56,263 nt of DNA from Helicobacteraceae bacterium (lineage in GTDB: Bacteria > Campylobacterota > Campylobacteria > Campylobacterales > Helicobacteraceae). This document shows positions 1 through 40,022 of this stretch, in pieces. The stretch lies in contig JAFVZI010000008.1 in assembly GCA_017508245.1 (NCBI GenBank), positions 1 through 56,263 on the forward strand. Direction: 5' to 3'. The notes under the pieces were generated by a model. The model saw only the letters and a list, made by a program, of their open reading frames with translations, was not told the DNA's origin and made no database searches. Both the position numbers and the translations under genes were made by a program. The number at the start of each line of letters is the position of its first letter. Position 1 is the first letter of the stretch.

Positions 1-1992
1 TGCATTAAATGTACTAAATGTAGTGTCTATCCACCAACCTGCAGAAGTTGGACTTCCTACATATTTCTTTGCTCCTGTTATCTTGTTGATTTCGCTTAAA
101 TCACAAGTTTGGCAATAGAATTCATAATACACTTTAGTAGTTGGTGGTGTTGAATAATTGCCTGCATTATCTGTATCAATCATATTTACTCTACCTCTAA
201 GTATGATTGCATCCTTTAGTGAATCAAAACTAGGGTTGTATTGTGGGTAGGAATTATCATTTTTCTTGCCAGCATAATAAACGAGAGGGTTCACACTAGT
301 TCCTAATTTTATCGGCTCGGCTACCATACTAGGATTCCAAGGATTTTTTGTATTTTGCACGCTTAAGACTCTCTGTAAATTTGCCATAGCTTGATTGCTT
401 TGGTATGTAAAATCTTTTGCTGTTATAAGCGTAGTAGTGCTACTTGTAGTCGCACTTGTTGGGTCGATGAATACTATAGAAGTATCCGCACCATTTAGCT
501 CCAATTCTGTATCAATCGCAGCACAGCCATTTACAAAATTCTTCAAAGAATTATTTGCACTACCTTTTGGAATCACTTGCAATGTCACTGATCCCTCGTT
601 TGCAGGAGAACTACCTTGTCCATAGTAAAGCACTTTTATAGGAGAGCCTTTTATTGTGGTAACTTTTATCTCGAAATTATCTGGGACAATTAGATAATCA
701 AAACTAAACTCAAATGTCGGTGGAAATGGGCATTTTCCATGGTTTGTACCATTTCCAGAGCAACCGCCCCTTGCTTTCTCTCCATCGATGATATTTTTCA
801 TATCTTGGTCTATGTATGACATAGTCATCTTGCCTTTATAAACATCATCAAAACTAAAATTTTCGGTTCCACTAAAATTTCCATTGCTTATTGAAGTTTT
901 GAAATCTTTTGGCAATGTCGGAGCATTGGCTTGACATACTCTTGTACCAGAAACTGCATTTAAACCTTGTATCACATTTTGTATTTCACCCAATCTTTGC
1001 ATACTAGTATTCACACCACTATCTACACCACCACTATTGGTATTTGCACTACCACTCAATGCAATATCAAGACTACTTCCAACTTTTTGAACTATATCTT
1101 TACCGCTTAAAGATACTTTTTTAGTAGCTCCATTAGATGTAACTTTTGGACTATTTATAGTGTAGCTTTGTCCATTATGAGCAGTTATTTTAAGCTCTGC
1201 AGTATAACTAGCTGGTGCTACATAAAATCGTAAGCTAGGACTTACTACATTGTTATTACTATTATCTACTCCACTACATTGAAGAGTATAATATCCTGCC
1301 TTTGAAAGTCCTCTTTGGACTTCAAATACATACGTTCCACCACCCCAAAAATCCCAATTAGCAGAAGCAGAAGTTGTTCCACCACTACCAGAAACAGTGC
1401 ATGTAGCACTCTTTAGTCCTGAACCAAAACTTCCAGCATTATTTTTATGATACATTCTTACTTTTAAATCACTGCCTGTAGTCCTAGTATAGACGACATT
1501 TGGAGTTGCTCCTGTCCCAAAAATATTATTTATTTCTTCTATAATCAAATCTGCAGGTTTTTCTGGCTTTGGTTTTTCTGGTGGCGTAGTACCTCCTCCA
1601 GTTTTCTTGATGAAACAATTATCTTTACTTTGCGGAGTGCAGAAATTTGGTTTATACACTGCTGTATTACTAAATTTAATTTCGCTATGTCTATCAGGTA
1701 CGCCTGTGCAAGTATAAAATCCGTAATTATTACAAAGATTTGAATCGTTTAAGACATCTTGTTTGAACGAAATTGTACTCCCGCTACCACTTCCTGGTTT
1801 CCCATCTGTGACCTTATCTAAATCACTTATCCATACACAATTGACGAATTTTTTTGAACCACCAACATTACTAGAATCAACGACTTTGTGCTCATTGATG
1901 CAAACTCGCGTCTCATCTCTACCACCACCAGCTGCATAAGCGATACTAGCTAAAAATAAAAACACAAACAAAAATTGTGAAAATAATCTCAT
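1..1992 (-). CDS. large secreted protein, N-terminal 664 residues (runs off left edge)
   Basis: The frame is open from an ATG at 1992 to the window edge without a stop, and GGAGG lies 5 nt before the ATG. Residues 1-20 form a classic signal peptide (hydrophobic core, cleavage likely after AYA), so the product is exported. The mature part starts Gly/Arg-rich and has several scattered cysteines. A Pro/Lys/Glu linker (TTPPEKPKPEKP) lies near residues 135-148, followed by a long Ser/Thr/Gly/Asn-rich region of beta-strand character with no membrane segments. I do not recognise the family. Large size, secretion and low complexity would suit an adhesin or a MshQ-like surface protein, but that is only inference. 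The C-terminus is outside the window, so an autotransporter or anchoring domain cannot be judged. The next gene on its 5' side is the divergent tRNA-Arg. Confidence 0.85.
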   Translation of the reverse strand, partial: MRLFSQFLFVFLFLASIAYAAGGGRDETRVCINEHKVVDSSNVGGSKKFVNCVWISDLDKVTDGKPGSGSGSTISFKQDVLNDSNLCNNYGFYTCTGVPDRHSEIKFSNTAVYKPNFCTPQSKDNCFIKKTGGGTTPPEKPKPEKPADLIIEEINNIFGTGATPNVVYTRTTGSDLKVRMYHKNNAGSFGSGLKSATCTVSGSGGTTSASANWDFWGGGTYVFEVQRGLSKAGYYTLQCSGVDNSNNNVVSPSLRFYVAPASYTAELKITAHNGQSYTINSPKVTSNGATKKVSLSGKDIVQKVGSSLDIALSGSANTNSGGVDSGVNTSMQRLGEIQNVIQGLNAVSGTRVCQANAPTLPKDFKTSISNGNFSGTENFSFDDVYKGKMTMSYIDQDMKNIIDGEKARGGCSGNGTNHGKCPFPPTFEFSFDYLIVPDNFEIKVTTIKGSPIKVLYYGQGSSPANEGSVTLQVIPKGSANNSLKNFVNGCAAIDTELELNGADTSIVFIDPTSATTSSTTTLITAKDFTYQSNQAMANLQRVLSVQNTKNPWNPSMVAEPIKLGTSVNPLVYYAGKKNDNSYPQYNPSFDSLKDAIILRGRVNMIDTDNAGNYSTPPTTKVYYEFYCQTCDLSEINKITGAKKYVGSPTSAGWWIDTTFSTFNA

Positions 1993-2041
1993 TTTTACCT
2001 CCTTAATGTGAAATATAATGTTTTTTCAAGGTTTGTAAGCA

Positions 2042-2047
2042 TATAAT
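2042..2047 (+). promoter_or_regulatory. -10 box for tRNA-Arg
   Basis: A perfect TATAAT lies 17 nt before the first base of the tRNA. No convincing -35 box is visible, which is common for Helicobacter sigma-80 promoters. Confidence 0.5.
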
Positions 2048-2064
2048 TTCGTCATTTTTAAAAT

Positions 2065-2141
2065 GTGTCCATAGCTCAGCTGAATAGAGCAACAGGTTGC
2101 GGTCCTGTAGGTCGGGGGTTTGAATCCCTCTGGGCACGCCA
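2065..2141 (+). tRNA. tRNA-Arg, anticodon GCG
   Basis: A full cloverleaf can be drawn. The acceptor GTGTCCA pairs with TGGGCAC, the D-stem is GCTC/GAGC, and the anticodon stem is ACAGG/CCTGT with loop TTGCGGT. The anticodon GCG at 2099-2101 reads CGC, and CGU by wobble. The CCA end is encoded (2139-2141). G34 rather than A34 means that this tRNA does not depend on adenosine-to-inosine editing. Confidence 0.95.
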
Positions 2142-2227
2142 TCTTTAATAAACAACTTTAAAATGCTTCTAAACAATTGAAATATTACAAAAATAAAAAT
2201 AAAACTGTTATAAAATTATTTACTTTT

Positions 2228-2253
2228 GTATTGTTTATAATAAAATTCAATAC
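2228..2253 (+). promoter_or_regulatory. candidate TetR operator over a -10 box
   Basis: GTATTG at 2228-2233 and CAATAC at 2248-2253 are perfect inverted arms flanking a TATAAT at 2236-2241. The site is 35 nt before the regulator gene. A palindrome over the promoter of a TetR-type gene is the usual setup for autorepression; here this is inference from position and symmetry. Confidence 0.4.
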
Positions 2254-2288
2254 ATTTTTAAATCTAAAAAGTGACATTTGGGGTGGGT

Positions 2289-2891
2289 ATGAAAAAAGAT
2301 GAAATTATCAAAAAACTGCAGAACTTCTTGGTGGCAAACAAAAATAGCGAGGAGATAGAATCTCTAACTCTAAATACAATCCTAAAACACTTAGGAATCT
2401 CAAAGGGAAGCTTTTATTATCATTTTAAGAACAAAGATGATTTGTTGTTTCAGGCAATAAATCCGCTTATAAAAAATCAAACTCAGGAATTTAAGCACGA
2501 TATAAAAAAACTAAATAGTCTAAAAGAGCAGTTTCATTTATTGTTTGAACCATTTGTAGCAGAACCAAACAATACTAAACTAAAGCAGATTGATAACTTT
2601 TATACAAATCTATTTTTTAAAGAATATACAAATAAAGCAAAACTACAAAATATAAAGAAAATATATACAAGTGTAAGAAATGCTAGAAAATCTCTACTAT
2701 TTCAAGCACTAAAATATAATGATATAAAAGTGGATAAAAAGCTAACTATATTGCTTGATTTTTTGGATACAACAATGATGTTTTATTATCATATAAATAA
2801 AGTTATATACAAAAAACACGCAAATAATGAAATATTGGATTTAATAGATATGTTGTGTAACTTGATAGAAAAACAATATAAAAATAAATAA
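2289..2891 (+). CDS. TetR/AcrR-family transcriptional regulator
   Basis: Product of 200 residues, the normal size for the family. The N-terminal helix-turn-helix covers about residues 5-50: the motif LGISKGSFYYHFKNKDDL is the recognition helix and following helix typical of TetR proteins. The C-terminal half is a helical, lysine-rich ligand/dimer domain with no recognisable ligand signature. I chose the ATG at 2289 because GGGGTGGG lies just before it; the GTG at 2271 has no ribosome-binding site. A palindrome over the upstream -10 box suggests autoregulation. The next gene, ppk, follows after 62 bp and could be in the same unit, but a regulatory link is not shown. Confidence 0.8.
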   Translation: MKKDEIIKKLQNFLVANKNSEEIESLTLNTILKHLGISKGSFYYHFKNKDDLLFQAINPLIKNQTQEFKHDIKKLNSLKEQFHLLFEPFVAEPNNTKLKQIDNFYTNLFFKEYTNKAKLQNIKKIYTSVRNARKSLLFQALKYNDIKVDKKLTILLDFLDTTMMFYYHINKVIYKKHANNEILDLIDMLCNLIEKQYKNK

Positions 2892-2953
2892 GCTAGATAC
2901 CCCATTTAATGTATAATTAAAAAATATAAATCTTAGCATTTATAAGGGGTAAA

Positions 2954-5041
2954 ATGAAAATAGATTCTAAATCATTTTTTAATAGAGAATTATCGTGGCT
3001 GGCATTTAATACTAGAGTGCTTAATGAAGCGAAAAATACGAAGATTCCGCTCTTGGAGAGATTGAAATTCATCGCTATATATGGAACAAATTTAGATGAA
3101 TTTTATATGGTTAGAGTGGCCGGATTAAAAAGACTATATCTAGCTGGAATCACAGAATATAGTGCCGATAAGCTAACTCCATTGCAACAACTAAATGAGA
3201 TCAGGAAATATATACACGACGAAAAAACAGAATTACAAAAAGTATTTGTTGAGATAAACAATGATTTGGCAAAAGAAAATTTGAGCTTTAAAAAATTTAG
3301 TGAGCTAAAGATAGAACAAAAAAAATATTTAAAGGAATTATTTCAATCATCCTTGTATCCTGTAATAGTGCCGATAATAGTAGATTCTACGCACCCATTT
3401 CCACACCTAAATAATCTATCATTTGCTATGGCAATAAAACTAAAAGATTCTACAAATAAAATAAAATTTGGAATGGTGAGAATTAGCAGAATGCTACCTA
3501 GGTTTATAGAAGCCACAGAAGGAGTATATGTGCCGATTGAAAATGTCGTCGGGGAGTTTATTGGCGAAGTTTTTGAAGGGTGCGAAGTAATATCATATAC
3601 GCCATTTAGAATCACAAGAAATGCAGATATGGAGATAGAAGAAGAGGAAGCTGATGATTTTATGGAGATTATGACTGAGGGGCTAAAAGCAAGAAAAAAA
3701 GGTGAGATAGTCCGTCTTGAAGTAGGAAAAAATGAAGATTCTAGTTTGCTTGAATTTATCACAAATCATATAAAGATTCAAAATGAAGATATATATGAAT
3801 ATTCAATACCGCTAAATCTAGGCACATTATGGCAAATAATTGGTGCAAAAAAATTTGCTCATCTTACACTTCCTATATTTAATGCAAAGATATTGCCTCC
3901 ACTAAATAACAATGCAGATATTTTTCATACAATAGACAATAATGATATAGCATTATTTCATCCATATGAAAGCTTTGATTCAATAGTAAATTTTATATCT
4001 AGTGCGGCAAAAGACCCCGATGTATATGCGATACGAATGACACTTTATCGTGCTGGCAAAAATTCATCTATAATAAAAGCACTAAGTGAGGCAGCAGAAA
4101 ATAACAAACAAGTAACCGCACTAGTCGAGCTAAAAGCAAGATTTGATGAAGAAAATAATCTATATTGGGCAAAAGCACTAGAAGCCGCTGGGGCACACGT
4201 AATCTATGGAATCCCAGGACTTAAAGTACATGCAAAAATAACATTGGTAATCAAAAAAGTAGGTGGTGAATTTAAAAAATATGTCCATCTCTCGACTGGC
4301 AACTACAATCCTGCAACAGCAAAAATATATACTGATATTAGCTATTTTACTTCAAATGAAGGGATTGCAAATGATGCTGTAAAATTCTTTCATACATTAT
4401 CTACAGGATATGCACAACAATGCAAACTAGATTCTATACTTATGGCACCAACACAAATAAAACCAAAAATATTACAATTAATAAGAGATGAAATAAAATA
4501 TGGCAAAGATGGATATATAATCTTAAAAGCCAATTCTATTGTCGATGTAGATGTGATAAATGCTCTCTATGAGGCAAGTAAAGCCGGAGTAAAAATCGAT
4601 ATGATAATTAGAGGTATATGTTGTCTAAAACCAAAAGTAGCCGGAATGAGTGAAAATATAAGAGTCATTTCAATTATTGGCAAATATTTAGAACATGCCA
4701 GAATCTATTATTTTAAAAATGGTAATCCACAAATCTATTTTGCAAGTGCCGACCTTATGCCTAGAAACCTAGAAAAAAGGGTAGAAATAATGACTCCAAT
4801 CACAAATAAGTCGATTGCTGATAAATTATTTGGAATACTAAAATTGCAACTAGAAGACAACACTCAAGCCCACGAATTGCAAGAAGATGGCACTTATAAA
4901 AAACTTACCCCAAAAGATAATAATGCCACAAACTCACAAGAAGAATATGAAAAATATGTAAATGTGATATTTAATAGCTCAATAAAAGCAAAAGATACAA
5001 AAGCAGACAAGCTTTTAAAAAGAATGATAGGCGAAAGCTAA
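2954..5041 (+). CDS. ppk: polyphosphate kinase 1
   Basis: Makes long-chain polyphosphate from ATP at the inner membrane, reversibly. Length 695 residues fits PPK1. The N-terminal helical domain begins FFNRELSWLAFN, a family hallmark. The two catalytic phospholipase-D-like histidines are present: His426 in KVHAKITL, the autophosphorylated one, and His581 in EHARIYYF. HLSTGNYNP at 445-453 and LMPRNLEKRVE near 601-611 are further conserved stretches. AAGGGG stands 5 nt before the ATG. A hairpin with a T-run follows the gene. Polyphosphate is linked to stress survival and motility in Campylobacterota. Confidence 0.97.
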   Translation: MKIDSKSFFNRELSWLAFNTRVLNEAKNTKIPLLERLKFIAIYGTNLDEFYMVRVAGLKRLYLAGITEYSADKLTPLQQLNEIRKYIHDEKTELQKVFVEINNDLAKENLSFKKFSELKIEQKKYLKELFQSSLYPVIVPIIVDSTHPFPHLNNLSFAMAIKLKDSTNKIKFGMVRISRMLPRFIEATEGVYVPIENVVGEFIGEVFEGCEVISYTPFRITRNADMEIEEEEADDFMEIMTEGLKARKKGEIVRLEVGKNEDSSLLEFITNHIKIQNEDIYEYSIPLNLGTLWQIIGAKKFAHLTLPIFNAKILPPLNNNADIFHTIDNNDIALFHPYESFDSIVNFISSAAKDPDVYAIRMTLYRAGKNSSIIKALSEAAENNKQVTALVELKARFDEENNLYWAKALEAAGAHVIYGIPGLKVHAKITLVIKKVGGEFKKYVHLSTGNYNPATAKIYTDISYFTSNEGIANDAVKFFHTLSTGYAQQCKLDSILMAPTQIKPKILQLIRDEIKYGKDGYIILKANSIVDVDVINALYEASKAGVKIDMIIRGICCLKPKVAGMSENIRVISIIGKYLEHARIYYFKNGNPQIYFASADLMPRNLEKRVEIMTPITNKSIADKLFGILKLQLEDNTQAHELQEDGTYKKLTPKDNNATNSQEEYEKYVNVIFNSSIKAKDTKADKLLKRMIGES

Positions 5042-5058
5042 GATTGTTTTCTTTGTAA

Positions 5059-5098
5059 AATTCTAGATTATATGAAATCTGGAATTATATTGTTTTTT
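5059..5098 (+). terminator. Rho-independent terminator after ppk
   Basis: AATTCTAGATT (5059-5069) pairs with AATCTGGAATT (5076-5086) over 11 bp with one G-U pair and a 6-nt loop, followed by a T-rich run at 5090-5098. It lies 17 bp after the ppk stop. Confidence 0.6.
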
Positions 5099-5155
5099 AA
5101 ATATTAGCCAAATTATAATTACATCTTTCAAATTTCAATATTCAAGAGTCCACAA

Positions 5156-7522
5156 ATGAGTGTTTTAAAAGTAATAAAGCGAAATGGCAGAACTGAAGAA
5201 TTAGACATTACAAAAATACAAAAATATACAAGTTCAGCTGTAAAAGATTTAGCAGGTGTTAGTCAAAGTGAGTTAGAAGTTGATGCAAGAATTTTATTTA
5301 GAGATGGAATTACAACAGAAGAAATACAACAAGCTCTAATAAAAACTGCAGTAGATAAGATAGATATAGATACACCTAATTGGACTTTTGTAGCATCTCG
5401 ATTATTCTTATATGATTTATACCACAAAGTAAGCAGATTTACAGGATATAAGCATTTAAGAGATTATCTTAAAAAGGGTATGAATGAAAATAAGATTTTA
5501 AAAGGATTTAGTGATAAATTTGATTTAGATTTATTAAATGATTATATAAAGCCAGAGAGAGATTTACAATTTAATTATCTAGGTATAAAAACATTATATG
5601 ATAGATATCTACTAAAAGATAGAAATGACAATCCTATAGAACTACCACAACATATGTTTATGGCTATATCTATGTTTTTAGCTCAAAATGAAAATGATTG
5701 TAATAAAAAAGCTATGGAATTTTATGATGTATTATCTAAATTTGAAGTGATGGTAGCTACTCCTACATTATCAAATGCTAGGACGCCTAGACATCAATTA
5801 TCTAGTTGTTATGTAGGTAGTATGCCTGATAATATAGAAGGGATATTTGATAGCTATAAAGAAATGGCATTATTATCTAAATATGGTGGTGGTATAGGAT
5901 ATGATGTATCTAAGATTAGAGGACTTGGTAGTTATATAGATAACCACAAGAATGTAGCAGGTGGAGTAGTCCCATTTCTAAAAATTACAAATGACTTAGC
6001 AGTAGCAATAGACCAATTAGGAACAAGAAAAGGAGCTATAGCTACATATTTAGAAGTATGGCATATAGATGTAGTAAATTTCATAGATTTAAGAAAAAAT
6101 AGTGGTGAAGAAAGAAGAAGAGCTCACGATTTATTTCCTGCATTATGGATTTGTGATTTGTTTATGAAAAGAGTCCAAGAGAATGGATTATGGACATTAT
6201 TTGACCCTTATGATGTAAGTGAGCTAACAGAATTATATGGCAAAGAGTTTGAAGCAAAATATATAGAATTTGAAAAAAGAGATGATATATCAAAAGAAGT
6301 AATCAATGCAAAAGACTTATGGAAAAAAATACTAACAAACTATTTTGAAAGTGGATTACCTTTTCTTTGTTTTAAAGATAATGCTAACAGAGCAAATCCA
6401 AATTCTCATAGTGGAATAATAAGAAGCTCAAATTTATGCACAGAAATATTCCAAAATACTTCACCTAGCCATTATAAAGTAAAAGTAGAATTTGAAAATG
6501 GTGATATCGAATTATTTGAAGAAGATGATATTATCACACTTGATAGTGGATTGAGCAAAAAAGCAAATAAACTAACCTCACTAGATTCTATCAATGGCAA
6601 AAAAGTATTTGTAGTAGAAAAGGTTGGATATGATGGTGAGAGTGCGGTATGTAATCTAGCAAGTATAAATCTATCTAAAATAAACACAAAAGAGGATATA
6701 GAAAGAGTAGTGCCTATTGCTATTAGAATGCTTGATAATGTAATAGATTTAAATTTCTATCCAACAAGAAAAGTAAGAACTACTAATCTAAAAAATAGAG
6801 CTATTGGATTAGGTGTAATGGGTGAAGCAGAAATGTTAGCAAAAGAGCAAATAATGTGGGGAAGTAATGAACATCTTCATAGAATAGATAGGATTATGGA
6901 GCTAATAAGCTTTAATGCTATAAATGCAAGTAGCGATATAGCTAAAGAAAAAGGTGTATATCCTGACTACAAAGGCTCTAATTGGAGTAAAGGAATATTT
7001 CCTATTGATGTAGCAAATAATGAAGCTCTATCTCTAGTAGATAGAGATTTGTTTGATAGATGTGATTGGGATACTCTAAAGCAAAAGGTTATAACTCAAG
7101 GCATAAGAAATGGATATCTTATGGCTATAGCACCTACAAGCTCTATATCTATACTTGTTGGAACTACACAAACAATAGAACCTATATATAAAAAGAAATG
7201 GTTAGAAGAAAATCTAAGTGGAATGATTCCAAATGTAGTGCCAAATCTAAATCTTGAAACATATAATTATTATGTTAGTGCTTATAGCCTAGATCAAAGA
7301 GATATTATAAAAGTAGCTAGTGTAAGACAAAAGTGGATAGACCAAGGACAAAGTGTAAATATATTTATGGAGATAGATAAAGCAAGTGGTAAATATCTAA
7401 ATGATATATATATGTTAGCTTGGAAGCTTGGATTAAAATCTACTTATTATCTAAGAAGTCAAAGTCCAGATGTAAAAGATGAAGCTATGGATAGAAGTAT
7501 TGAATGTTATAATTGCCAATAA
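5156..7522 (+). CDS. nrdA: ribonucleoside-diphosphate reductase, alpha subunit (class Ia)
   Basis: Reduces ribonucleotides to deoxyribonucleotides with the NrdB radical subunit, which is not in the window. The N-terminal ATP-cone is at about residues 1-95 (VIKRNGRTEELDITKIQ). Active-site residues are visible: Cys218 (SSCYVG), Asn426/Cys428/Glu430 (NLCTE) and Cys499 (AVCNLASIN); Cys784 and Cys787 at the extreme C-terminus (CYNCQ) form the shuttle pair. The spacing between Cys428 and Cys499 is 71 residues, against about 23 in E. coli, so there is an acidic insertion of roughly 45-50 residues. From memory, H. pylori NrdA has a similar insertion. licD starts 9 bp downstream with its ribosome-binding site overlapping the nrdA stop. 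Confidence 0.96.
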   Translation: MSVLKVIKRNGRTEELDITKIQKYTSSAVKDLAGVSQSELEVDARILFRDGITTEEIQQALIKTAVDKIDIDTPNWTFVASRLFLYDLYHKVSRFTGYKHLRDYLKKGMNENKILKGFSDKFDLDLLNDYIKPERDLQFNYLGIKTLYDRYLLKDRNDNPIELPQHMFMAISMFLAQNENDCNKKAMEFYDVLSKFEVMVATPTLSNARTPRHQLSSCYVGSMPDNIEGIFDSYKEMALLSKYGGGIGYDVSKIRGLGSYIDNHKNVAGGVVPFLKITNDLAVAIDQLGTRKGAIATYLEVWHIDVVNFIDLRKNSGEERRRAHDLFPALWICDLFMKRVQENGLWTLFDPYDVSELTELYGKEFEAKYIEFEKRDDISKEVINAKDLWKKILTNYFESGLPFLCFKDNANRANPNSHSGIIRSSNLCTEIFQNTSPSHYKVKVEFENGDIELFEEDDIITLDSGLSKKANKLTSLDSINGKKVFVVEKVGYDGESAVCNLASINLSKINTKEDIERVVPIAIRMLDNVIDLNFYPTRKVRTTNLKNRAIGLGVMGEAEMLAKEQIMWGSNEHLHRIDRIMELISFNAINASSDIAKEKGVYPDYKGSNWSKGIFPIDVANNEALSLVDRDLFDRCDWDTLKQKVITQGIRNGYLMAIAPTSSISILVGTTQTIEPIYKKKWLEENLSGMIPNVVPNLNLETYNYYVSAYSLDQRDIIKVASVRQKWIDQGQSVNIFMEIDKASGKYLNDIYMLAWKLGLKSTYYLRSQSPDVKDEAMDRSIECYNCQ

Positions 7523-17036: not shown

Positions 17037-18506
17037 ATGCATACAAATAGTGCATTAGAATACGACTATTCAATAGCAAAGCTGTTTATATGGACAACTT
17101 TGATTTTTGGTGTAGTTGGTATGCTAGTTGGTGTAATTATTGCTTTTCAGATGGCTTACCCGGCACTAAATCACATTGCTGGAGAATATGGTATTTTTGG
17201 GAGATTAAGACCAATTCATACAAATGGTGTAATATATGGATTTACACTTAGTGGAATCTGGGCTGCGTGGTATTATTTAGGGCAAAGGGTTTTGAAAATA
17301 ACATACAAACAGCATGCTTTTTTAAGAGTAGTTGGTTTATTGCATTTTTGGATATATTTGATTTTACTATTAGTCGCTGTTATATCTTTATTTGCCGGGA
17401 TAACACAATCCAAAGAATATGCGGAATTACCTTGGATACTTGATTTAATAGTGGTTGTAGTATGGGTATTATGGGGAGTAAGCCTATTTGGCTCTATGGC
17501 AGTAAGGAGAGAACACACTCTATATATCAGCATTTGGTATTTTATAGCAAGTTTTGTTGCAATTGCATTTTTGTATATCTTTAATAATCTTGCAATTCCT
17601 ACGTATCTTGTTTCTGGCGTTGGTAGTATTTGGTATTCTGTATCTATGTACGCAGGAACAAATGATGCTATGGTTCAGTGGTGGTGGGGACATAACGCTG
17701 TTGCATTTGTATTTACTTCAGGAATCATTGGTGTTATGTATTATTTCTTGCCAAAAGAATCTGGACAACCAATATTCTCATATAAACTTACTTTATTTTC
17801 ATTCTGGGGATTGATGTTTGTATATATTTGGGCTGGCGGACATCATCTAATTTACTCTACAACTCCAGATTGGGTTCAAACACTAGGTTCTGTATTTTCG
17901 GTTGTGTTAATATTGCCTTCTTGGGGAACTGCTATTAATATGCTCTTAACAATGAGGGGACAATGGCATCAACTAAGAGAATCTCCAATGATTAAATTCT
18001 TGATATTAGCATCTACATTCTATATGCTTTCAACTCTTGAGGGACCAATTCAATCAATTAGGTCTGTCAATGCACTAGCTCACTTTACGGATTGGATAGT
18101 AGGGCATGTCCATGATGGAGTTTTAGGTTGGGTAGGATTCACTATCATTGCAGCTTGCTATCACATGATTCCTAGAATCTGCAAAAGAGAAATATATTCT
18201 AGAAAAATCATGGATATGCAATTTTGGATAATGACACTTGGAATTATTCTTTATTTCTCAAGTATGTGGATATCAGGTATTACTCAAGGTATGATGTGGA
18301 GAGCGACCGATGAATTTGGAAGTTTGGCATATTCATTCATTGATACAGTATCAGTGTTGCATTTATACTATGTTATTAGGTCTGTAGCTGGTTTATTATA
18401 CTTGCTTGGATTTATTATGTTTACTTATAATATTATAATGACTATGATTGCAGGTAGAGAGCTTGATAGGGAGCCTCAATATGCAACTCCTATGTCTAAT
18501 AAATAG
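17037..18506 (+). CDS. ccoN: cbb3-type cytochrome c oxidase subunit I
   Basis: Catalytic haem b/b3-CuB subunit of the high-affinity terminal oxidase, about 12 membrane helices, 489 residues. Histidine ligands are seen in the family's usual places: IHTNGVIYGF, WWWGHNAVAF and GGHHLIYS, and HVHDGVLGW late in the protein. AGGAGGG precedes the start. First gene of ccoNOQP. In Helicobacter and Campylobacter this oxidase is the main enzyme for microaerobic respiration. Confidence 0.97.
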   Translation: MHTNSALEYDYSIAKLFIWTTLIFGVVGMLVGVIIAFQMAYPALNHIAGEYGIFGRLRPIHTNGVIYGFTLSGIWAAWYYLGQRVLKITYKQHAFLRVVGLLHFWIYLILLLVAVISLFAGITQSKEYAELPWILDLIVVVVWVLWGVSLFGSMAVRREHTLYISIWYFIASFVAIAFLYIFNNLAIPTYLVSGVGSIWYSVSMYAGTNDAMVQWWWGHNAVAFVFTSGIIGVMYYFLPKESGQPIFSYKLTLFSFWGLMFVYIWAGGHHLIYSTTPDWVQTLGSVFSVVLILPSWGTAINMLLTMRGQWHQLRESPMIKFLILASTFYMLSTLEGPIQSIRSVNALAHFTDWIVGHVHDGVLGWVGFTIIAACYHMIPRICKREIYSRKIMDMQFWIMTLGIILYFSSMWISGITQGMMWRATDEFGSLAYSFIDTVSVLHLYYVIRSVAGLLYLLGFIMFTYNIIMTMIAGRELDREPQYATPMSNK

Positions 18507-26771: not shown

Positions 26772-27404
26772 ATGGATGTTGTTTGGATATTTGATATTAT
26801 TGGAATCATTGCATTTGCAATTAGTGGATTTTTGGTTGGCATAAGAAAGCAATTTGATATTTTAGGAATCGCAATAATGTCAGCTATAACATCGTTTGGT
26901 GGTGGAATAATACGCGATAGTATAGTATCTAGGATGCCTTTTGTTTTTACCTTTTATTATCCAAGCGTTACACTATTTGTAGTCTTCATAGGTTGTATAA
27001 TATTTAGAAAACTAGTTAATGACAAGATAGAACAAAAGATTCTATTTATTGTAATGGATGCAATAGGATTAGTTGCGTTTGCTATATCTGGTGCATTACT
27101 TGCAATTGATATAAATTTTAATTTATTTGGTGTTATTATATTGTCCTTTCTTACGGCAGTCGGCGGTAGTATCACAAGAGATACGATAATAAATGAGATT
27201 CCATTATTGCTTAGAAGTGAAATCTATGGAATCATTGCTATATACTGTGCATTGGTATTATTTATATATTCATATTTTTTTGATGAATACAACATCTATA
27301 TCATTTCATTTGTTGCAACAAGTGCATTCTTGCTAAGAATAATTGCATATATCAAAAAATGGCGATTACCTACACTCACACAGTATTATAAACAAGATTA
27401 TTAA
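26772..27404 (+). CDS. TRIC-family cation channel (UPF0126)
   Basis: 210 residues, seven membrane helices in the family's duplicated form: SFGGGIIRDSI in the first half and AVGGSITRDTI in the second, the two glycine/RD motifs of TRIC proteins. Bacterial members are homotrimeric potassium-permeable channels. Its stop overlaps that of convergent flgE by 3 bp, leaving no room for an intergenic terminator. Confidence 0.92.
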   Translation: MDVVWIFDIIGIIAFAISGFLVGIRKQFDILGIAIMSAITSFGGGIIRDSIVSRMPFVFTFYYPSVTLFVVFIGCIIFRKLVNDKIEQKILFIVMDAIGLVAFAISGALLAIDINFNLFGVIILSFLTAVGGSITRDTIINEIPLLLRSEIYGIIAIYCALVLFIYSYFFDEYNIYIISFVATSAFLLRIIAYIKKWRLPTLTQYYKQDY

Positions 27405-29581
27405 CGTTTTAAGTTTATTGCTTCTTTTATCAAATCATCGCCAGTTGTAAAAGCCTTTGCATTCATTGCATATCCACGTTGGAATATTATTAAATTCGTC
27501 ATAGCATCGACTGGATTTACATTGCTACTCTCAAGATATTTATGCAATATTTGTCCAAATCGTAGATTCCCCGCTTCGTCCCAGCCAAGTATAGGATTAC
27601 CACTTGCGGGAATACTTTCTTCTCCATCTCTACTTACCAAATTCATTTCAAATAGATTTCCACCTGTTTTTTGCAAACCTTGGTCATTTACAAATGCAAT
27701 AACACCTATTCTACCCATAACCTCTGTAATGCCATTTGAAAATGTAAGATTAATAAGACCATTGTTATCAACAGAAATCTCACTTAATTCGCCTTTTTGC
27801 ACTCCATCTTTTGTCTCTTCTAAAATAGATGAATCCACATAAGCAAAACTTGTGCTTCTTCTATCTTCATTTCCATTTAAGCTATATGTGATACTTCTAT
27901 CATTTACCTTTAATTCTATATCATCACTTTGAATTACATTGCCATCTTTATCAAATGTAATCTTACTAAATACTTCATCACTAATAATATTTTTTCCATC
28001 TTTGTCATACAAAGCAGTTTTGACACTCCAAACTTTTGTATCATTTGATTTATCTTGCAAGATAAATTTCGAAATTATTAATTGCTTTTCCCCATTTTCG
28101 TCAAATATTTCTGTAATAGTTTTATAGTTTGCAACCCCTATCTTATTGCTTAAAAACTTTTCATTATCCAATAATCGCCAATTTATCTTATCATTTTGTG
28201 GATTACCATCGCTAGAATCTCCAGTTTTTATATACACCGAATCATTAAAATAAACTAAAGAGTTTCTTGCATACTCGGTGTTTTCATCATATTGTGTAAT
28301 TGTGATTTGCTTTACATCACCAAGCTCCCTCCAACTTGTAACATCATCCAAAGATGAGGCAACTTCGCTTATCTTTTGATATATCTTGCCATCATTTTTT
28401 ACTAGCGAATTCATATCGTAGCTAGATTCTGCGTTATAAGTGCTTACTCCGATAGAATCTACTAGAATCCAAGATTGACTATCTTCTAGTGGATTAGAGC
28501 TACCATCAGTCTCTATTCTTTGAAATATAGCACCATCAATTTTTGTATAATCACCAACCAAATAATTTTTTGTAATATCAAAATCTTTTATTTTTAAACC
28601 ATCTAATACTTTTGAGCCCTTTAGCCCCAATCTATCAAATAATTTTCCACCTAATTCAACATTCATACTCGCAAGTGAATCATTTTTTAACTCTAAGGTG
28701 ATGTTACTAGTATCTTGATTAAGTCCAAAATCTAATCCCGTCTGCTCTTTTATTTTATTTATTAGCTCAACTAATGTTTTAAAGCCATTCTCTCCATCGC
28801 CATTATATTGAAAGATATATTCTTTGCTTTCATCATTTTTTGTGATTTTTATACTTACATCACTAAATGCTTCCGCATTTACTTGCTCCCCATCAACCAA
28901 TAATGAATTAACATCTTGATTTAATATAGCCTCATTATCAATCTCTCCATTGCTATCTAAAAATACTTCATAAGCTGGCAATGTGCTTTGACTTGGATTT
29001 AGATTGATAGCAATATCTATTTTTGTAGTTTGTGTTGGTCCATAATGTAAATTCTGCGGAATCCTAAGTGGTTTTAAATCCTCGCTAGACAACAATTGAG
29101 AATCTATTTCTTTATTGCTAACGAACACTCCATTTTGTATTTTCCCTAAATCAACACCCATCATATAATTACCAGATGTATTTACAATATACCCTTCTCC
29201 ATCTCTTAGAAATGAGCCATCTCTAGTAAAAAAAGTGTTTGGATTTGGCTCTTCTACACTAAAAGTATTATTTTCATTATTGCCAACCACAAACCAACCT
29301 TTTCCAAGATATGCTACATTTAATTCTCCATCACTCTCATTATAGTTACCACTTATATTTGATATTGCATTTGAAGCGGCACTAGAGCCATAATTTATAT
29401 CACTAGATACAGATGAGTTTGGATTTGTCGAGGTTAATGCACTAGAAAATAAGCTTTTAAATTCTGGGTTATTTGCTCTATAGCCTGTTGTATTAATATT
29501 TGCAATATTGTTTGATATAGAATCTATTCCAAATTGATGTGTTTTAATGCCACTATATCCATTTAATAAAGTAGAATTCAT
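27401..29581 (-). CDS. flgE: flagellar hook protein, FlgE family
   Basis: 726 residues. The N-terminal rod/hook motif is STLLNGYSGIKTHQFGID followed by SNNIANINTTGYR (residues 24-36), and the C-terminal coiled segment is VNPVDAMTNLIIFQRGYAMNA, both diagnostic. Forms the polymer joining the basal body to the filament. The middle of the protein carries three copies of a module of about 45 residues at 333-473, described separately. Gene order fliK-flgD-flgE equals H. pylori HP0906-0908, where the third gene is annotated as a second hook gene; in C. jejuni the same order ends in flgE itself. Which paralogue this is cannot be settled from the window. Confidence 0.93.
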   Translation of the reverse strand: MNSTLLNGYSGIKTHQFGIDSISNNIANINTTGYRANNPEFKSLFSSALTSTNPNSSVSSDINYGSSAASNAISNISGNYNESDGELNVAYLGKGWFVVGNNENNTFSVEEPNPNTFFTRDGSFLRDGEGYIVNTSGNYMMGVDLGKIQNGVFVSNKEIDSQLLSSEDLKPLRIPQNLHYGPTQTTKIDIAINLNPSQSTLPAYEVFLDSNGEIDNEAILNQDVNSLLVDGEQVNAEAFSDVSIKITKNDESKEYIFQYNGDGENGFKTLVELINKIKEQTGLDFGLNQDTSNITLELKNDSLASMNVELGGKLFDRLGLKGSKVLDGLKIKDFDITKNYLVGDYTKIDGAIFQRIETDGSSNPLEDSQSWILVDSIGVSTYNAESSYDMNSLVKNDGKIYQKISEVASSLDDVTSWRELGDVKQITITQYDENTEYARNSLVYFNDSVYIKTGDSSDGNPQNDKINWRLLDNEKFLSNKIGVANYKTITEIFDENGEKQLIISKFILQDKSNDTKVWSVKTALYDKDGKNIISDEVFSKITFDKDGNVIQSDDIELKVNDRSITYSLNGNEDRRSTSFAYVDSSILEETKDGVQKGELSEISVDNNGLINLTFSNGITEVMGRIGVIAFVNDQGLQKTGGNLFEMNLVSRDGEESIPASGNPILGWDEAGNLRFGQILHKYLESSNVNPVDAMTNLIIFQRGYAMNAKAFTTGDDLIKEAINLKR
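28163..28585 (-). repeat. three tandem protein modules inside the hook protein
   Basis: Residues 333-376, 377-422 and 424-473 align to a common pattern: Tyr at the start, then Y/D-x-x-x-(S)LV/GD-x-x-x-N/D-x-x-(I/V)YxK, an acidic/serine loop, and a final W-x-L-(V/G/L)-D. Examples are NSLVKNDGKIYQKI and NSLVYFNDSVYIKT, each followed by a closing SWREL or NWRLL. The pattern resembles carbohydrate-binding modules of family 5/12. The similarity is my reading of conserved aromatic and glycine/aspartate positions. Confidence 0.6.
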
Positions 29582-29596
29582 CTTAAATCTCCTTGC

Positions 29597-30433
29597 TTAT
29601 TTCTTTGCGTAAAATTCCAGTGCTTCTTCAAGTGGCACGATTAAATCACCCATTCTTAAATGCGGTTTGCCATCATCAAAGATTATACTTTGCACTTCGC
29701 CTCTACCAAGTCTAGCGATATTTGAGCTACCATCTAGATTCTGATTATAATTTGCTATCACGCTATAAGCACCGCTTGGAAGAATATCTCCTAAATTATC
29801 TCTAGAATCCCAAGTAAAACTCAAATATCCACCTTTTCCATTATACGAGCTAATATCAAACTCCCGCACTAATTCATTATTGTCATTAAAAATCATTATT
29901 TTTGGAATACCTCTATTTGCATCGATATTTTCATCAAAATAAAGCTCAAAATCGATATTTTTGCCTTCCTCAATATTTAATCCATTAATCTTTGTTTCTG
30001 CGATTTTACCTATAATATTAATGCTGTTATACGGCGATGAAATATATGTATTAGAAACATTATCAACACTAGATTCTGCATTTTTATTTATGCTTGCAAG
30101 CAAGGCTTCAAGCGTAGTTTTCATATCATTTTGAAAGTTTTTCAACTCTTCGTTTGTAGCTTGCGTACTTTTCATAGCATTTGCAACTTCAATCATCGTT
30201 TGTTTCGTTTGCTCTTGCATTTCAACTTGTGTTAATTGTGCTGTTTGAGTAATGATTTTGTCAGTCTCCATTGGTGAAGTTGGGTCTTGATTTTTTAACT
30301 GCTCTAAAAACAATTTCATAAAAGCGTCATTATCAAGTTCATTTGTATTTTTCTTTGGTTTTGCTTCTTGTGCTTTGTTGTATCCACTGATTTCATTTAA
30401 GTTTATTGGTTCTCTTATGCTATTTGCTGCCAT
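29597..30433 (-). CDS. flgD: flagellar hook-capping/scaffold protein
   Basis: 278 residues. FlgD caps the growing hook and adds FlgE subunits. The conserved N-terminal block is DAFMKLFLEQLKNQDPTSPM, followed by ETDKIITQTAQLTQVEM. The C-terminal Ig-like part contains YNGKGGYLSFTWDSRDNLGD and PSGAYSVIANY, as in FlgD. Two ATGs in a row exist (30436 and 30433); the second has better spacing to AAAGGA. Lies between fliK and flgE. Confidence 0.95.
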   Translation of the reverse strand: MAANSIREPINLNEISGYNKAQEAKPKKNTNELDNDAFMKLFLEQLKNQDPTSPMETDKIITQTAQLTQVEMQEQTKQTMIEVANAMKSTQATNEELKNFQNDMKTTLEALLASINKNAESSVDNVSNTYISSPYNSINIIGKIAETKINGLNIEEGKNIDFELYFDENIDANRGIPKIMIFNDNNELVREFDISSYNGKGGYLSFTWDSRDNLGDILPSGAYSVIANYNQNLDGSSNIARLGRGEVQSIIFDDGKPHLRMGDLIVPLEEALEFYAKK

Positions 30434-30442
30434 CATAATCCT

Positions 30443-32200
30443 TTATGCATAGTTATTTACAAGTGTGATTTCTAGATTTGCCATTTCATTATCTATATCA
30501 TCATCAACAGGATCTATTGATTTGTCTATGTGTTTAAAACTCCACTCTCCTCTACCATCACTAAATCCCATTTGCGAGCCATTTGAAAAACTCATTGTTA
30601 TATTTTCATATCCTATCTGGCTTAGTGCTGTGCGTAAATCACTTTGATTTTGGATGAATAAATTCATAGTGTTTTGATTGCCATTTAACTGAAGTTGGAT
30701 ATTTTTACCTTGATGAGTAATGCTTACTTCAATACTCCCTAAATTTGAAGGATTTAACTCTATTGTTACCTTTGAGATAGGCGGTTTATAATTTACTATC
30801 TCTTGTTTTAATGCCCTCGTAAAACCATTGAAAGTTTCTTTTACATCTATATTTTTTTGAGTTTGGTTATTTTTCACATTGTCCAAATTAGGAGAATCTG
30901 TATTTTTATCATTACTTATTTGTTTAGCTTCATTCTCAAGCTTTGACTCTTTTTTATTATTTAATTTTAAACTTACTGGTTTTAGTTCTTCATTTTTCAT
31001 CAAATTAGAATCTTGCTGTGCCATATCTTTTGTATTTAATTCATTTTTTGCTTGTATTGGCTTAGAATCTATATTTTGAACATTAGCATCTTTGGTATTT
31101 TGCTCTTTTATATTTTGTGTGATTTCTGTTTTATTAGGACTTTTTAAGTCATCTTTTGAAGTTTCGATTTTTGATTTTAAATCATTATTTTTAAAATCAA
31201 GTGGAATCTTAGCACCAACTTCACTTGGCTTTACAATCTCTTTTTTATGCTGTATTTTTGTGAGGTTTAGTGCCAATTCATCAGCTTTTTTTATCAAATC
31301 GCTTAGTTTTTTGCCATCGCTTGGTTTGAGCAAAGACAATGCATCAAAAGCCTTAAAAGCTCCATATTTAAGCGTATCTTTAAGTGGCAATTTTATTTTA
31401 TCATCACTTAAAGTGGAAAATCTTGGTGCTTCATCTTTGAGAAGATTGTTTATTAAAGTCTTGTTATTTTCTTCTTTTGTATTTTCATTTTTTGCTGTAT
31501 TTAGCGGTATTTCTTTTTGCAAATTAGATATTTTGGCCTCTTCTTTTGTATTTTCTATATTAGAATCTTTTAAATTATCTTTTACTTCGCTACTTGCTTT
31601 TGGTCTAATGATATCTTTATCCAAATTTTCTATTTTTGGTTCTTTATACTCAGATTTGACTACCAGATTCTCTAAATCTATATCTTTTGATTCATTGTTA
31701 TCTATTTTTTTTGTTGGTCTAATAATGTCATCTTTTGATTCATTTGGATTCTTTAAATCTTTTGTATTTTGCGTATTATTAGTAGCAAATAAACTATCAT
31801 TTTGTGGTTTATTTTGTAAAATTTTTTTAAATAACTCATCTTTTGATTTTGGACTTGCAATCTCTTTTTTATCATCAATAATAGTTTTATTTTGAATTGG
31901 GGTAGTATTTTCTACTTCTATATTCCCACTGGTAGAATCTAGAGCAGTTTTTTGGATTAAACTATTTTGCAATAGCGGTTTTACTTGCTGTGTAGTTTTA
32001 GAATCTAATGTTTTATGATGATTTTGTGGAATCTTATGCCGACTTATTGACTTAGATTCTACTTCTTTAGTAGGTTTGTCTGTCTTCCCAAGATTGTGTA
32101 AAAATTTAGCAAAATCCACTCCATTTCTTTTTGAAGATTTTTTTGTTGCGTTTTTTGCTATACTCGGTGCGACAGCTTCATTAGCACTATCTATAATCAT
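30443..32200 (-). CDS. fliK: flagellar hook-length control protein
   Basis: 585 residues. The long N-terminal part (to about 470) is low-complexity, rich in Lys, Asn, Asp, Glu and Ser, as in FliK, the molecular ruler. The C-terminal domain (VTIELNPSNLGSIEVSITH, then NQSDLRTALSQIGYENI) is the export-switch domain that talks to FlhB. First gene of the leftward flagellar block. Long open frames on the opposite strand here are by-products of the biased composition. Confidence 0.93.
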   Translation of the reverse strand: MIIDSANEAVAPSIAKNATKKSSKRNGVDFAKFLHNLGKTDKPTKEVESKSISRHKIPQNHHKTLDSKTTQQVKPLLQNSLIQKTALDSTSGNIEVENTTPIQNKTIIDDKKEIASPKSKDELFKKILQNKPQNDSLFATNNTQNTKDLKNPNESKDDIIRPTKKIDNNESKDIDLENLVVKSEYKEPKIENLDKDIIRPKASSEVKDNLKDSNIENTKEEAKISNLQKEIPLNTAKNENTKEENNKTLINNLLKDEAPRFSTLSDDKIKLPLKDTLKYGAFKAFDALSLLKPSDGKKLSDLIKKADELALNLTKIQHKKEIVKPSEVGAKIPLDFKNNDLKSKIETSKDDLKSPNKTEITQNIKEQNTKDANVQNIDSKPIQAKNELNTKDMAQQDSNLMKNEELKPVSLKLNNKKESKLENEAKQISNDKNTDSPNLDNVKNNQTQKNIDVKETFNGFTRALKQEIVNYKPPISKVTIELNPSNLGSIEVSITHQGKNIQLQLNGNQNTMNLFIQNQSDLRTALSQIGYENITMSFSNGSQMGFSDGRGEWSFKHIDKSIDPVDDDIDNEMANLEITLVNNYA

Positions 32201-32237: not shown

Positions 32238-32254
32238 AAGCAATTACTATTCCT
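32238..32254 (-). promoter_or_regulatory. candidate sigma-54 promoter of the fliK-flgD-flgE block
   Basis: Read leftwards the site is AGGAATAGTAATTGCTT. The invariant GG and GC are exactly 12 bases apart as in the -24/-12 consensus, and TTGCTT matches the -12 box well; the -24 box keeps only GG and the A. It is about 40 nt upstream of the fliK ATG. Hook genes are RpoN-controlled in Helicobacter and Campylobacter, which supports the reading. Confidence 0.4.
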
Positions 32255-32355
32255 AAAAATAAATACGAATATCAAGTAAGACCAATAAATATTTTTTAAA
32301 GCTAAAAATTTATAGAATCAAAAATTTTTAATTTCAAATTCAAAATAGAGATAAT

Positions 32356-37748: not shown

Positions 37749-40022
37749 ATGAGCAGTATTTTGGGATTCCCACGAATTGGCAAAAATAGAGAGTTAAAAA
37801 AAGCATTAGAGAGTTTTTGGAATGATAAATGTAGCCAAAAAGACTTGGAAAATACAGCAAAAGAATTGAGGGCAAAACACTGGGAGGCACAGAAAAATCT
37901 TGATTTTGTTTGCGTCAATGATTTTAGTTATTATGACAATGTGTTAGATTTAGCATATGCACTAAATGCAAAGCCAAAGCGATTTAGAGATTTAAGCGGA
38001 CTTGAAGGCTATTTTGCGATGGCTAGAGGAAATAAAAATAATGTAGCTTGCGAGATGACAAAATGGTTTAATACAAACTATCACTATGTCGTGCCAGAAT
38101 TAAGCATAGATGATGAATATAAAGCGGATGTAAGTTCTATAAAAATGCAATACGATGAGGCAAAAGCCTTAGGTTACAATCCAAAAATAAGCTTGATAGG
38201 ATTGTTTAGCTTTTTTGCATTAAGCAAAGTTGTAGATGGAGATAAAAAAGATATTTTCAAAAAGCTAAAAAGTGCATATTTAGACCTTATTGATGAAATA
38301 GCAAAGCTAGATTCTAATGTTGTGATAGAATTTAGCGAGCCTATTTTTGCAACAGGGCTAAATAGTGATAATTTCAAAGATTTAAAATGTATATATGATA
38401 GAAATGTGATTGAGTGTATTTATAATTCGATTGCAAAAAAAGGTATAAAGGCGATTGTAAGCACATTTTTTGAACATAGCAATGAATTTAGTGAGATTTT
38501 GCTAAAGAGTGATATTTATGGAATAGGACTTGATTTTGTATATGGAGAAAAAAATAAAAATATTTTAGAATCTATTGCAAAAAGCAACAAAATTCTATAT
38601 GCGGGGGTGATTGATGGGAGAAATATCTGGGTTGCAAACCTAGAAGAAAAACTAAGATTCCTAGAATCTATAAGCAAAATAGTGCCAAAAAATAGGATTG
38701 TCATCACTTCCTCTTGCTCACTTCTTCACGTGCCTTTTAGCAAAGATGATGAAGACAAAATGGATAAATCAATATTATCTTGGCTAAGTTTTGCAGTCGA
38801 AAAAATAAAAGAACTCGAGGTTTTAGATAAGGCATTTAAAGGTGATTTAGATTCTTATACTCAAGATTTTTTGCAATCAAACAAAGCTATCAATGATAAT
38901 CGCAAAAACTCTACTAAAACAAATAATAAAAATATTCGCCAAAGAGTTGAAAACTATAAAATTACACAGCGAGAAGAGCCATTTGAAACGAGAATTAAGA
39001 TTCAAAAAGAAAACTTTAATTTTCCAATATTGCCTACGACAACAATCGGTTCATTTCCACAAACAAGCGAGATTCGAGCCTTAAGGCAGAATCTAAAAAA
39101 AGGCTTAATCTCACAAGAAAAATACAATGAAGGCATCAAAGAATACATAAGAGATTGCATAAGATTCCAAGAAGAAGCTGGATTGGATGTTTTGGTGCAT
39201 GGTGAGCCAGAAAGAAATGATATGGTTGAATATTTTGGCGAGCAACTAGAAGGTTTTGCATTTAGCAAAAATGCGTGGGTGCAAAGTTATGGAAGCAGAT
39301 GTGTAAAGCCACCAATCATTTATGGTGATGTTGAGAGAAAAAATCCTATGACAATTGAGTGGATAACATACGCTCAAAGCCTAAGTAAAAAGATAGTAAA
39401 AGGAATGCTTACAGGTCCAGTTACGATACTAAATTGGAGTTTTGTGAGGGACGACTTAGCCAGAAAAGATGTGTGTAAGCAAATCGCAATAAGCATTGCT
39501 GATGAAATCAATGACTTACAAAATGCAAATATAAAAATCATTCAAGTTGATGAAGCAGCATTTAAAGAAGGTTATCCGCTAAGGGCTGAAAATATCAAAG
39601 AATATGAGACTTGGGCACTTTTTTGCTTTAAAATTTCAACTGCCATTGCAAAATCACAAACACAAATTCACACACATATGTGCTATAGTGATTTCAATGA
39701 TATTATAAAAACAATAGAAGCACTTGATGCGGATGTAATTAGCATTGAGACTGCAAGAAGTGGAAATAAACTATTAAAAGTATTCAAACAAGTAGGATAC
39801 AAAAATGAAGTAGGACCAGGCGTATATGACATACATAGCCCTAGGATTCCAAGTGTAGAAGAGCTAACAAAACAAATTAAAGCCTTGCTTGAAGTATTGC
39901 CAAAAGAACAATTATGGATAAATCCAGATTGTGGGTTAAAAACAAGAAAATGGGAAGAAGTAAATCCGAGCCTAAAAAATATAGTCATTGCAGTAAAAAA
40001 TGTGAGAGAGGACTTAGCATAA
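37749..40022 (+). CDS. metE: cobalamin-independent methionine synthase
   Basis: 757 residues. Transfers methyl from methyl-tetrahydrofolate triglutamate to homocysteine. The N-terminal half starts SSILGFPRIGKNRELKKALE, diagnostic for MetE. The C-terminal catalytic half has TIGSFPQTSEIRALR, HGEPERNDMVEYFGEQ and the zinc-ligand region HTHMCYSDFND; the third zinc cysteine is in NPDCGLKTR. AAGGA 6 nt before the ATG. metF follows after 28 bp. I see no SAM or cobalamin riboswitch in the 94-bp leader. Confidence 0.97.
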   Translation: MSSILGFPRIGKNRELKKALESFWNDKCSQKDLENTAKELRAKHWEAQKNLDFVCVNDFSYYDNVLDLAYALNAKPKRFRDLSGLEGYFAMARGNKNNVACEMTKWFNTNYHYVVPELSIDDEYKADVSSIKMQYDEAKALGYNPKISLIGLFSFFALSKVVDGDKKDIFKKLKSAYLDLIDEIAKLDSNVVIEFSEPIFATGLNSDNFKDLKCIYDRNVIECIYNSIAKKGIKAIVSTFFEHSNEFSEILLKSDIYGIGLDFVYGEKNKNILESIAKSNKILYAGVIDGRNIWVANLEEKLRFLESISKIVPKNRIVITSSCSLLHVPFSKDDEDKMDKSILSWLSFAVEKIKELEVLDKAFKGDLDSYTQDFLQSNKAINDNRKNSTKTNNKNIRQRVENYKITQREEPFETRIKIQKENFNFPILPTTTIGSFPQTSEIRALRQNLKKGLISQEKYNEGIKEYIRDCIRFQEEAGLDVLVHGEPERNDMVEYFGEQLEGFAFSKNAWVQSYGSRCVKPPIIYGDVERKNPMTIEWITYAQSLSKKIVKGMLTGPVTILNWSFVRDDLARKDVCKQIAISIADEINDLQNANIKIIQVDEAAFKEGYPLRAENIKEYETWALFCFKISTAIAKSQTQIHTHMCYSDFNDIIKTIEALDADVISIETARSGNKLLKVFKQVGYKNEVGPGVYDIHSPRIPSVEELTKQIKALLEVLPKEQLWINPDCGLKTRKWEEVNPSLKNIVIAVKNVREDLA

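Follow-up and report, generated by a model that had tools for sequence, protein, structure and literature searches.

Three tandem modules of predicted CBM5/12 fold within FlgE2, the second hook-type protein of Helicobacteraceae

Helicobacter and Campylobacter each carry two hook-type genes. The second hook-type protein of H. pylori, FlgE2 (HP0908), has a solved structure (5npy), and its C. jejuni counterpart is presumably Cj0043, judging from gene order. The purified hook of C. jejuni consists only of the Cj1729c product, which is of the HP0870 type, without Cj0043 (PMC5069557). This main hook protein (5jxl) carries extra outer domains, D3 and D4, within D2, which give a thicker and probably stiffer hook; when D3 and D4 were grafted into Salmonella FlgE the hook became thicker and, by the authors' inference, slightly stiffer (PMC5069557). 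CBM5/12 modules are found in chitinases and chitin deacetylases (PF02839; 1ed7, 2rts, 1e15, 4ny2), and modules of the same fold are arranged in tandem, as beads, in the rod-like assemblies of phage tail fibres and spikes (8kec, 9rkv, 8fqc, phrog_9851, phrog_20878). In the open-access literature searched we found no description of CBM-type modules in a hook protein, in agreement with the initial annotation of this locus.

The window, by which we mean the whole stretch of 56,263 nucleotides of Helicobacteraceae DNA that was analysed, encodes a FlgE-family protein whose features are collected in Table 1. The NCBIfam model NF004495 spans the whole protein (E 3.8e-206), with a score of 686 bits that lies under the model cut-off of 857 bits. 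Insert-free orthologs of three other genera (g3, g4 and g10) do not reach this equivalog cut-off either; the model therefore looks centred on H. pylori, and the assignment to the HP0908 type rests on homology rather than on the equivalog rule. Among proteins of solved structure the closest is H. pylori FlgE2 (5npy; phmmer E 2.2e-141, and Z 28.9 for the structural comparison with the model), which has the same type of gene neighborhood and the same D1-D2-D3 frame. Pfam flagellar rod/hook domains match both ends of the protein. The initial annotation had called it a flagellar hook protein; membership of the FlgE family stands, but it is the second paralog, FlgE2, and not the HP0870/Cj1729c hook protein, that bears the modules. 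The genome of the window encodes a separate full-length HP0870-type hook protein (C12:139085-141232; TIGR02489, 1117 bits), whereas the best piece of the module-bearing FlgE2 scores 82.6 bits in the same search. The other genomes with the insert that were tested likewise have a separate full-length TIGR02489 protein. The two genes lie on different contigs in the genome of the window and adjoin each other in two other genomes (G120:C1:1654236-1658686 and G114:C3:50227-55204).

The next genes upstream of flgE2 are flgD and then fliK, giving the order fliK-flgD-flgE2. Table 1 also lists a promoter-like site before fliK. Exact matches to the sigma-54-like pattern occur elsewhere in the window, at 39611-39628 (+) and 17128-17145 (+), and the loose form of the pattern is commoner in the window than in shuffled sequence (132 matches versus a mean of 94).

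Table 1. Features of the flgE2 locus, with coordinates on the window and the basis of each assignment.
Feature	Position	Strand	Basis
flgE2, FlgE-family hook paralog, HP0908 / PRK05841 type	27401..29581	-	726 aa; NF004495, 5npy, structure matches
Second half of D2 domain, residues 481-590	27812..28141	-	PF07559 FlgE_D2 at 475-576; structures 6ndw, 5ay6, 9wx3 align over 182-592
Whole insert, residues 324-480 (157 residues), not in H. pylori FlgE2	28142..28612	-	break in 5npy alignment
Predicted CBM5/12-fold unit R3, residues 430-471	28169..28294	-	profile matches; best Pfam stretch; chitin deacetylase 4nyu Z 7.3, rmsd 1.4; cyanophage tail fibre 8kec Z 6.9
Predicted CBM5/12-fold unit R2, residues 380-420, shortest and most degenerate	28322..28444	-	profile matches; chitinase B 1e15 Z 6.7, rmsd 1.8 over 48 residues (insert residues 59-107)
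Predicted CBM5/12-fold unit R1, residues 333-374	28460..28585	-	profile matches; Z 7.4 to chitinase B 1e15, model residues 328-375
Outer domain (D3-like), residues 226-323, immediately before modules	28613..28906	-	weak FliD/flagellin outer-domain likeness, Z about 5.5; name assigned by us
flgD, hook cap / assembly protein	29597..30436	-	NF004496 E 2.3e-103, above cut-off
fliK, hook-length control protein	30443..32200	-	PF02120 Flg_hook E 8.1e-15, above cut-off
Possible sigma-54 (-24/-12) promoter, some 37 bases before fliK	32238..32255	-	TAGGAATAGTAATTGCTT, 1 mismatch to TTGGN8TTGCTT; consensus match only

The alignment of FlgE2 with its H. pylori homolog breaks cleanly, residues 1-323 corresponding to residues 1-337 of 5npy and residues 481-726 to residues 352-605. 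Where the H. pylori protein has a linker of 13-14 residues, the window protein has an insert with three tandem units of about 42 residues each. The initial annotation had placed three consecutive units at 28163-28585 (residues 333-473, minus strand), and profiles built solely from units of other genera recover exactly three in this region (at residues 333-374, 380-418 and 430-471), with domain E values of 1e-6 to 1e-11 for a nominal database size of 1000; among 20 shuffles there was a single match, with an E value of 1.1. A combined profile scores 2.9e-16, 1.5e-12 and 3.5e-16 on R1, R2 and R3, respectively, values that are not independent because this profile contains the units of the window. 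The repeat is weaker inside the window protein alone (z 7.6, 3.3 and 4.9 for the unit pairs, against 1000 shuffles) and stronger in the three orthologs tested (z 6.0 to 15.9). The same insert in 48 genomes and the profile tests against shuffles rule out chance or artefact. R2 of the window protein lacks its proline and is the weakest unit. The second unit has also decayed in the H. cholecystus lineage, where it scores 17.5 bits over 23 residues at one locus (L034) and lacks the proline loop at another of the same genus (L031, g8); the first and third units are preserved there. The g6 loci (L012-L014, L017, L018, L022, L026, L027 and L029) have an extra acidic loop before the proline of R2, for example ETPDPDTGDTIIES. 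The insert lies at the outer end of the protein, and its mean identity of 37% is about that of the neighboring outer domain (41%), with 65% for D0/D1, which bears out the earlier proposal of a variable outer position.

Several lines of evidence point to the fold of the units. CBM_5_12 (PF02839) is the only notable Pfam family for the module region of the window, where its E value is 8.5e-5 and its scores of 15.2-22.9 bits are under the gathering score of 26.2 bits; it matches 30 of 30 orthologous inserts (best E 7.4e-18), and four whole proteins (L015, L025, L014 and L005) pass the cut-off. PF14600, also proposed in the initial annotation, gave no match. When the window region alone was searched, NCBIfam and a phmmer search of the PDB were uninformative. 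A profile of the inserts found chitin deacetylase, the chitin-binding domain of a chitinase (2rts) and phage tail fibres and spikes in the PDB. AlphaFold2 run with a 30-sequence alignment gave a pLDDT of about 79-93 across the units, within models of pLDDT 78.8 and 71.8, for which surfaces are beyond reach. The models of R1, R2 and R3 align to solved CBM5/12 structures with an rmsd of about 1.2-2.1 over 43-49 residues and Z values of 6-7, which are modest on the scale of the structural aligner. Since sequence and structure agree and the domains have only about 45 residues, we accept the fold despite the modest Z values, and we regard the predicted CBM5/12 fold of all three units as established by profiles and models together. 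Pfam, the PDB profile and structure comparison exclude a repeat unrelated to CBM5/12, and the predicted structures exclude an unrelated or non-repeated fold, so that the likeness to CBM5/12 claimed at the outset holds. The units share with the modules of chitinases and chitin deacetylases the fold, the core aromatics, the glycine, the proline and the closing tryptophan, but they are part of a flagellar axial-type protein and no enzyme. Both the protein family and the fold are known; their combination is new.

The insert is present in 48 of 121 Helicobacteraceae genomes, representing six of thirteen genera. It was not found in the FlgE2 proteins sampled from the other seven genera (among them g2-g4 and g9-g12), which have 13 residues at the insertion site, or 22-24 in one genus. 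Named carriers are Helicobacter sp. 16-1353, of the same genus as the window, Helicobacter sp. MIT 05-5294, H. cholecystus and strain S15 (H. caesarodunensis); among the named species without it are H. trogontum, H. heilmannii, H. ailurogastricus and H. didelphidarum. One record titled Helicobacter cetorum (L041), which is apparently a cave metagenome-assembled genome (isolate SulCav), has an insert-free FlgE2 on a deep long branch, and its species name looks wrong. No modules were seen in the standard hook protein at the FlgE1 loci checked, module matches at the edge of two loci (L126 and L133) being assigned to the adjacent FlgE2. Some 70 FlgE-like loci sampled beyond the family had none either, and an order-wide scan outside the family gave only weak matches in other, mostly small open reading frames.

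On a FlgE2 tree built without the insert columns, presence and absence of the insert require three changes. The units group by position across orthologs, R1 with R1 and so on, and the triplication therefore predates the sampled carriers. The insert is vertically inherited, and the three-change tree together with the grouping by position rules out a recent horizontal gain. From the tree the insert is likely ancestral and later lost, an order that depends on forks with SH-aLRT values of 80-99 and no bootstraps, support for the deepest forks being weak.

Outside the family, phage tail fibres account for many of the nearest profiles, and a phage tail-fibre family is matched by 22 of the 30 inserts. 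The modules could thus be a domesticated tail-fibre segment with no present function beyond folding, acquired a single time at the base of the family, retained since then by inertia and dropped in some lineages. The best phage match (tblastn E 4e-5, about 27% identity) is weak, although it fits such an origin, as do the short linker of the insert-free orthologs and the decay of R2 in the H. cholecystus lineage. Apart from the low identity, the FlgE2 modules differ from the phage beads in sitting in a hook-family protein. We consider inertia improbable as the whole explanation: the insert is kept throughout 48 genomes and six genera, its core residues are almost invariant in the 30 aligned inserts, and a useless block of 150 residues should be lost more often.

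To examine the ligand site, 90 units were aligned to eight CBM5/12 modules that served as references. The core aromatics are kept in 98-100% of units (first aromatic 90/90, tyrosine 90/90, second tyrosine or phenylalanine 88/90, closing tryptophan 89/90). We take W43 and Y44 of endoglucanase Z (EGZ) and W687 of chitinase A1 (ChiA1) to be the surface aromatics for cellulose and chitin binding, and at the corresponding columns none of the 90 units has an aromatic residue. In this alignment the classical sugar-binding surface is therefore gone from the FlgE2 units, and direct glycan recognition through the usual CBM5/12 surface appears unlikely, bearing in mind that CBM binding sites can shift position. 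In the alignment, the tail-fibre modules of 9rkv likewise lack the ligand aromatics. These residues bear on the role proposed in the initial annotation, in which the modules project from the hook exterior and attach to host mucus, to sugars of glycoproteins or to chitin, which would help to hold the cell in mucus. Such a role would suit the fold, the outer and variable position, the many hosts that are mucus dwellers and the presence of modules in a probably unsheathed lineage (G120/L015). However, besides the missing aromatics, the modules sit in the second paralog, the standard hook protein being separate (the C. jejuni hook contains the HP0870-type protein only), they are kept in a sheathed strain, and inhabitants of gastric mucus from the H. 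pylori/heilmannii lineage lack them. The proposal is not borne out by these observations, and we think it unlikely.

When fliP is off in H. pylori, outer-membrane vesicles lack HP0908 together with FlgD, FliK and the hook FlgE (PMC11394524), a joint absence from which export of HP0908 by the flagellar system follows. FlgE2 is thus a genuine flagellar export substrate. The flagella of strain S15 are sheathed (PMC5741639), the strain carries the insert, and in H. pylori the sheath encloses the hook (PMC7175336); in such species the modules would therefore face membrane on the inside rather than mucus, and mucus contact in sheathed carrier species is unlikely by this analogy. The insert in S15 also rules out a strict association of the insert with the absence of a sheath. 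The sheath table of PMC6908825 was left out, as its numbering appeared wrong.

A sugar-binding role need not be external. FlgE2 may sit at the rod-hook junction or beneath the sheath, with the modules binding peptidoglycan or inner sheath sugars, for example in seating the hook base. N-acetylglucosamine is common to chitin and peptidoglycan, contact of this kind is compatible with the presence or absence of a sheath, and FlgE2 is exported along with hook parts. The location is presumed, however, the binding aromatics are missing here as well, and the modules are missing from g2-g4 and g9-g12; we judge this reading unlikely too. Taken broadly, the idea that FlgE2 serves about half of the Helicobacteraceae genera as a glycan-binding appendage, with modules that use a non-classical surface to bind some sugar of the host, the peptidoglycan or the sheath, seems a little less improbable, though we would still not expect it. 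If it were true, the flagellar base would be an adhesin or a wall anchor.

The explanation that we consider most likely, with about as much confidence as doubt, is that the modules serve a minor hook protein as a structural outer domain. FlgE2 is exported, its gene lies with those of the hook cap FlgD and the hook-length ruler FliK, and it may be a minor or early component of the hook. At its outer end, three tandem CBM5/12-fold modules would add bulk and extra contacts between subunits and could thereby make the segment formed by FlgE2 different in diameter or stiffness. The parallels are the outer domains D3 and D4 of the C. jejuni hook and the module beads of phage tail fibres. The first is drawn by analogy, since D4 is not known to share the CBM5/12 fold and is not the same domain, and since its carrier is the main hook protein, the other paralog. 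Against a structural role, C. jejuni builds hooks that lack the FlgE2 counterpart, which weighs by analogy, and the retention of all three units in most carrier genera would be equally expected from a binding function.

The 'CBM' annotation on FlgE2 should not be taken as chitin binding. A chitin-binding fold has found a second use, probably a structural one, in a flagellar axial-type protein. The insert occurs all through some genera and is cleanly missing in others, so that it is removable without touching the conserved D0-D2 frame, and it may thus serve as a handle on the role of the second hook-type gene in Helicobacter and Campylobacter.
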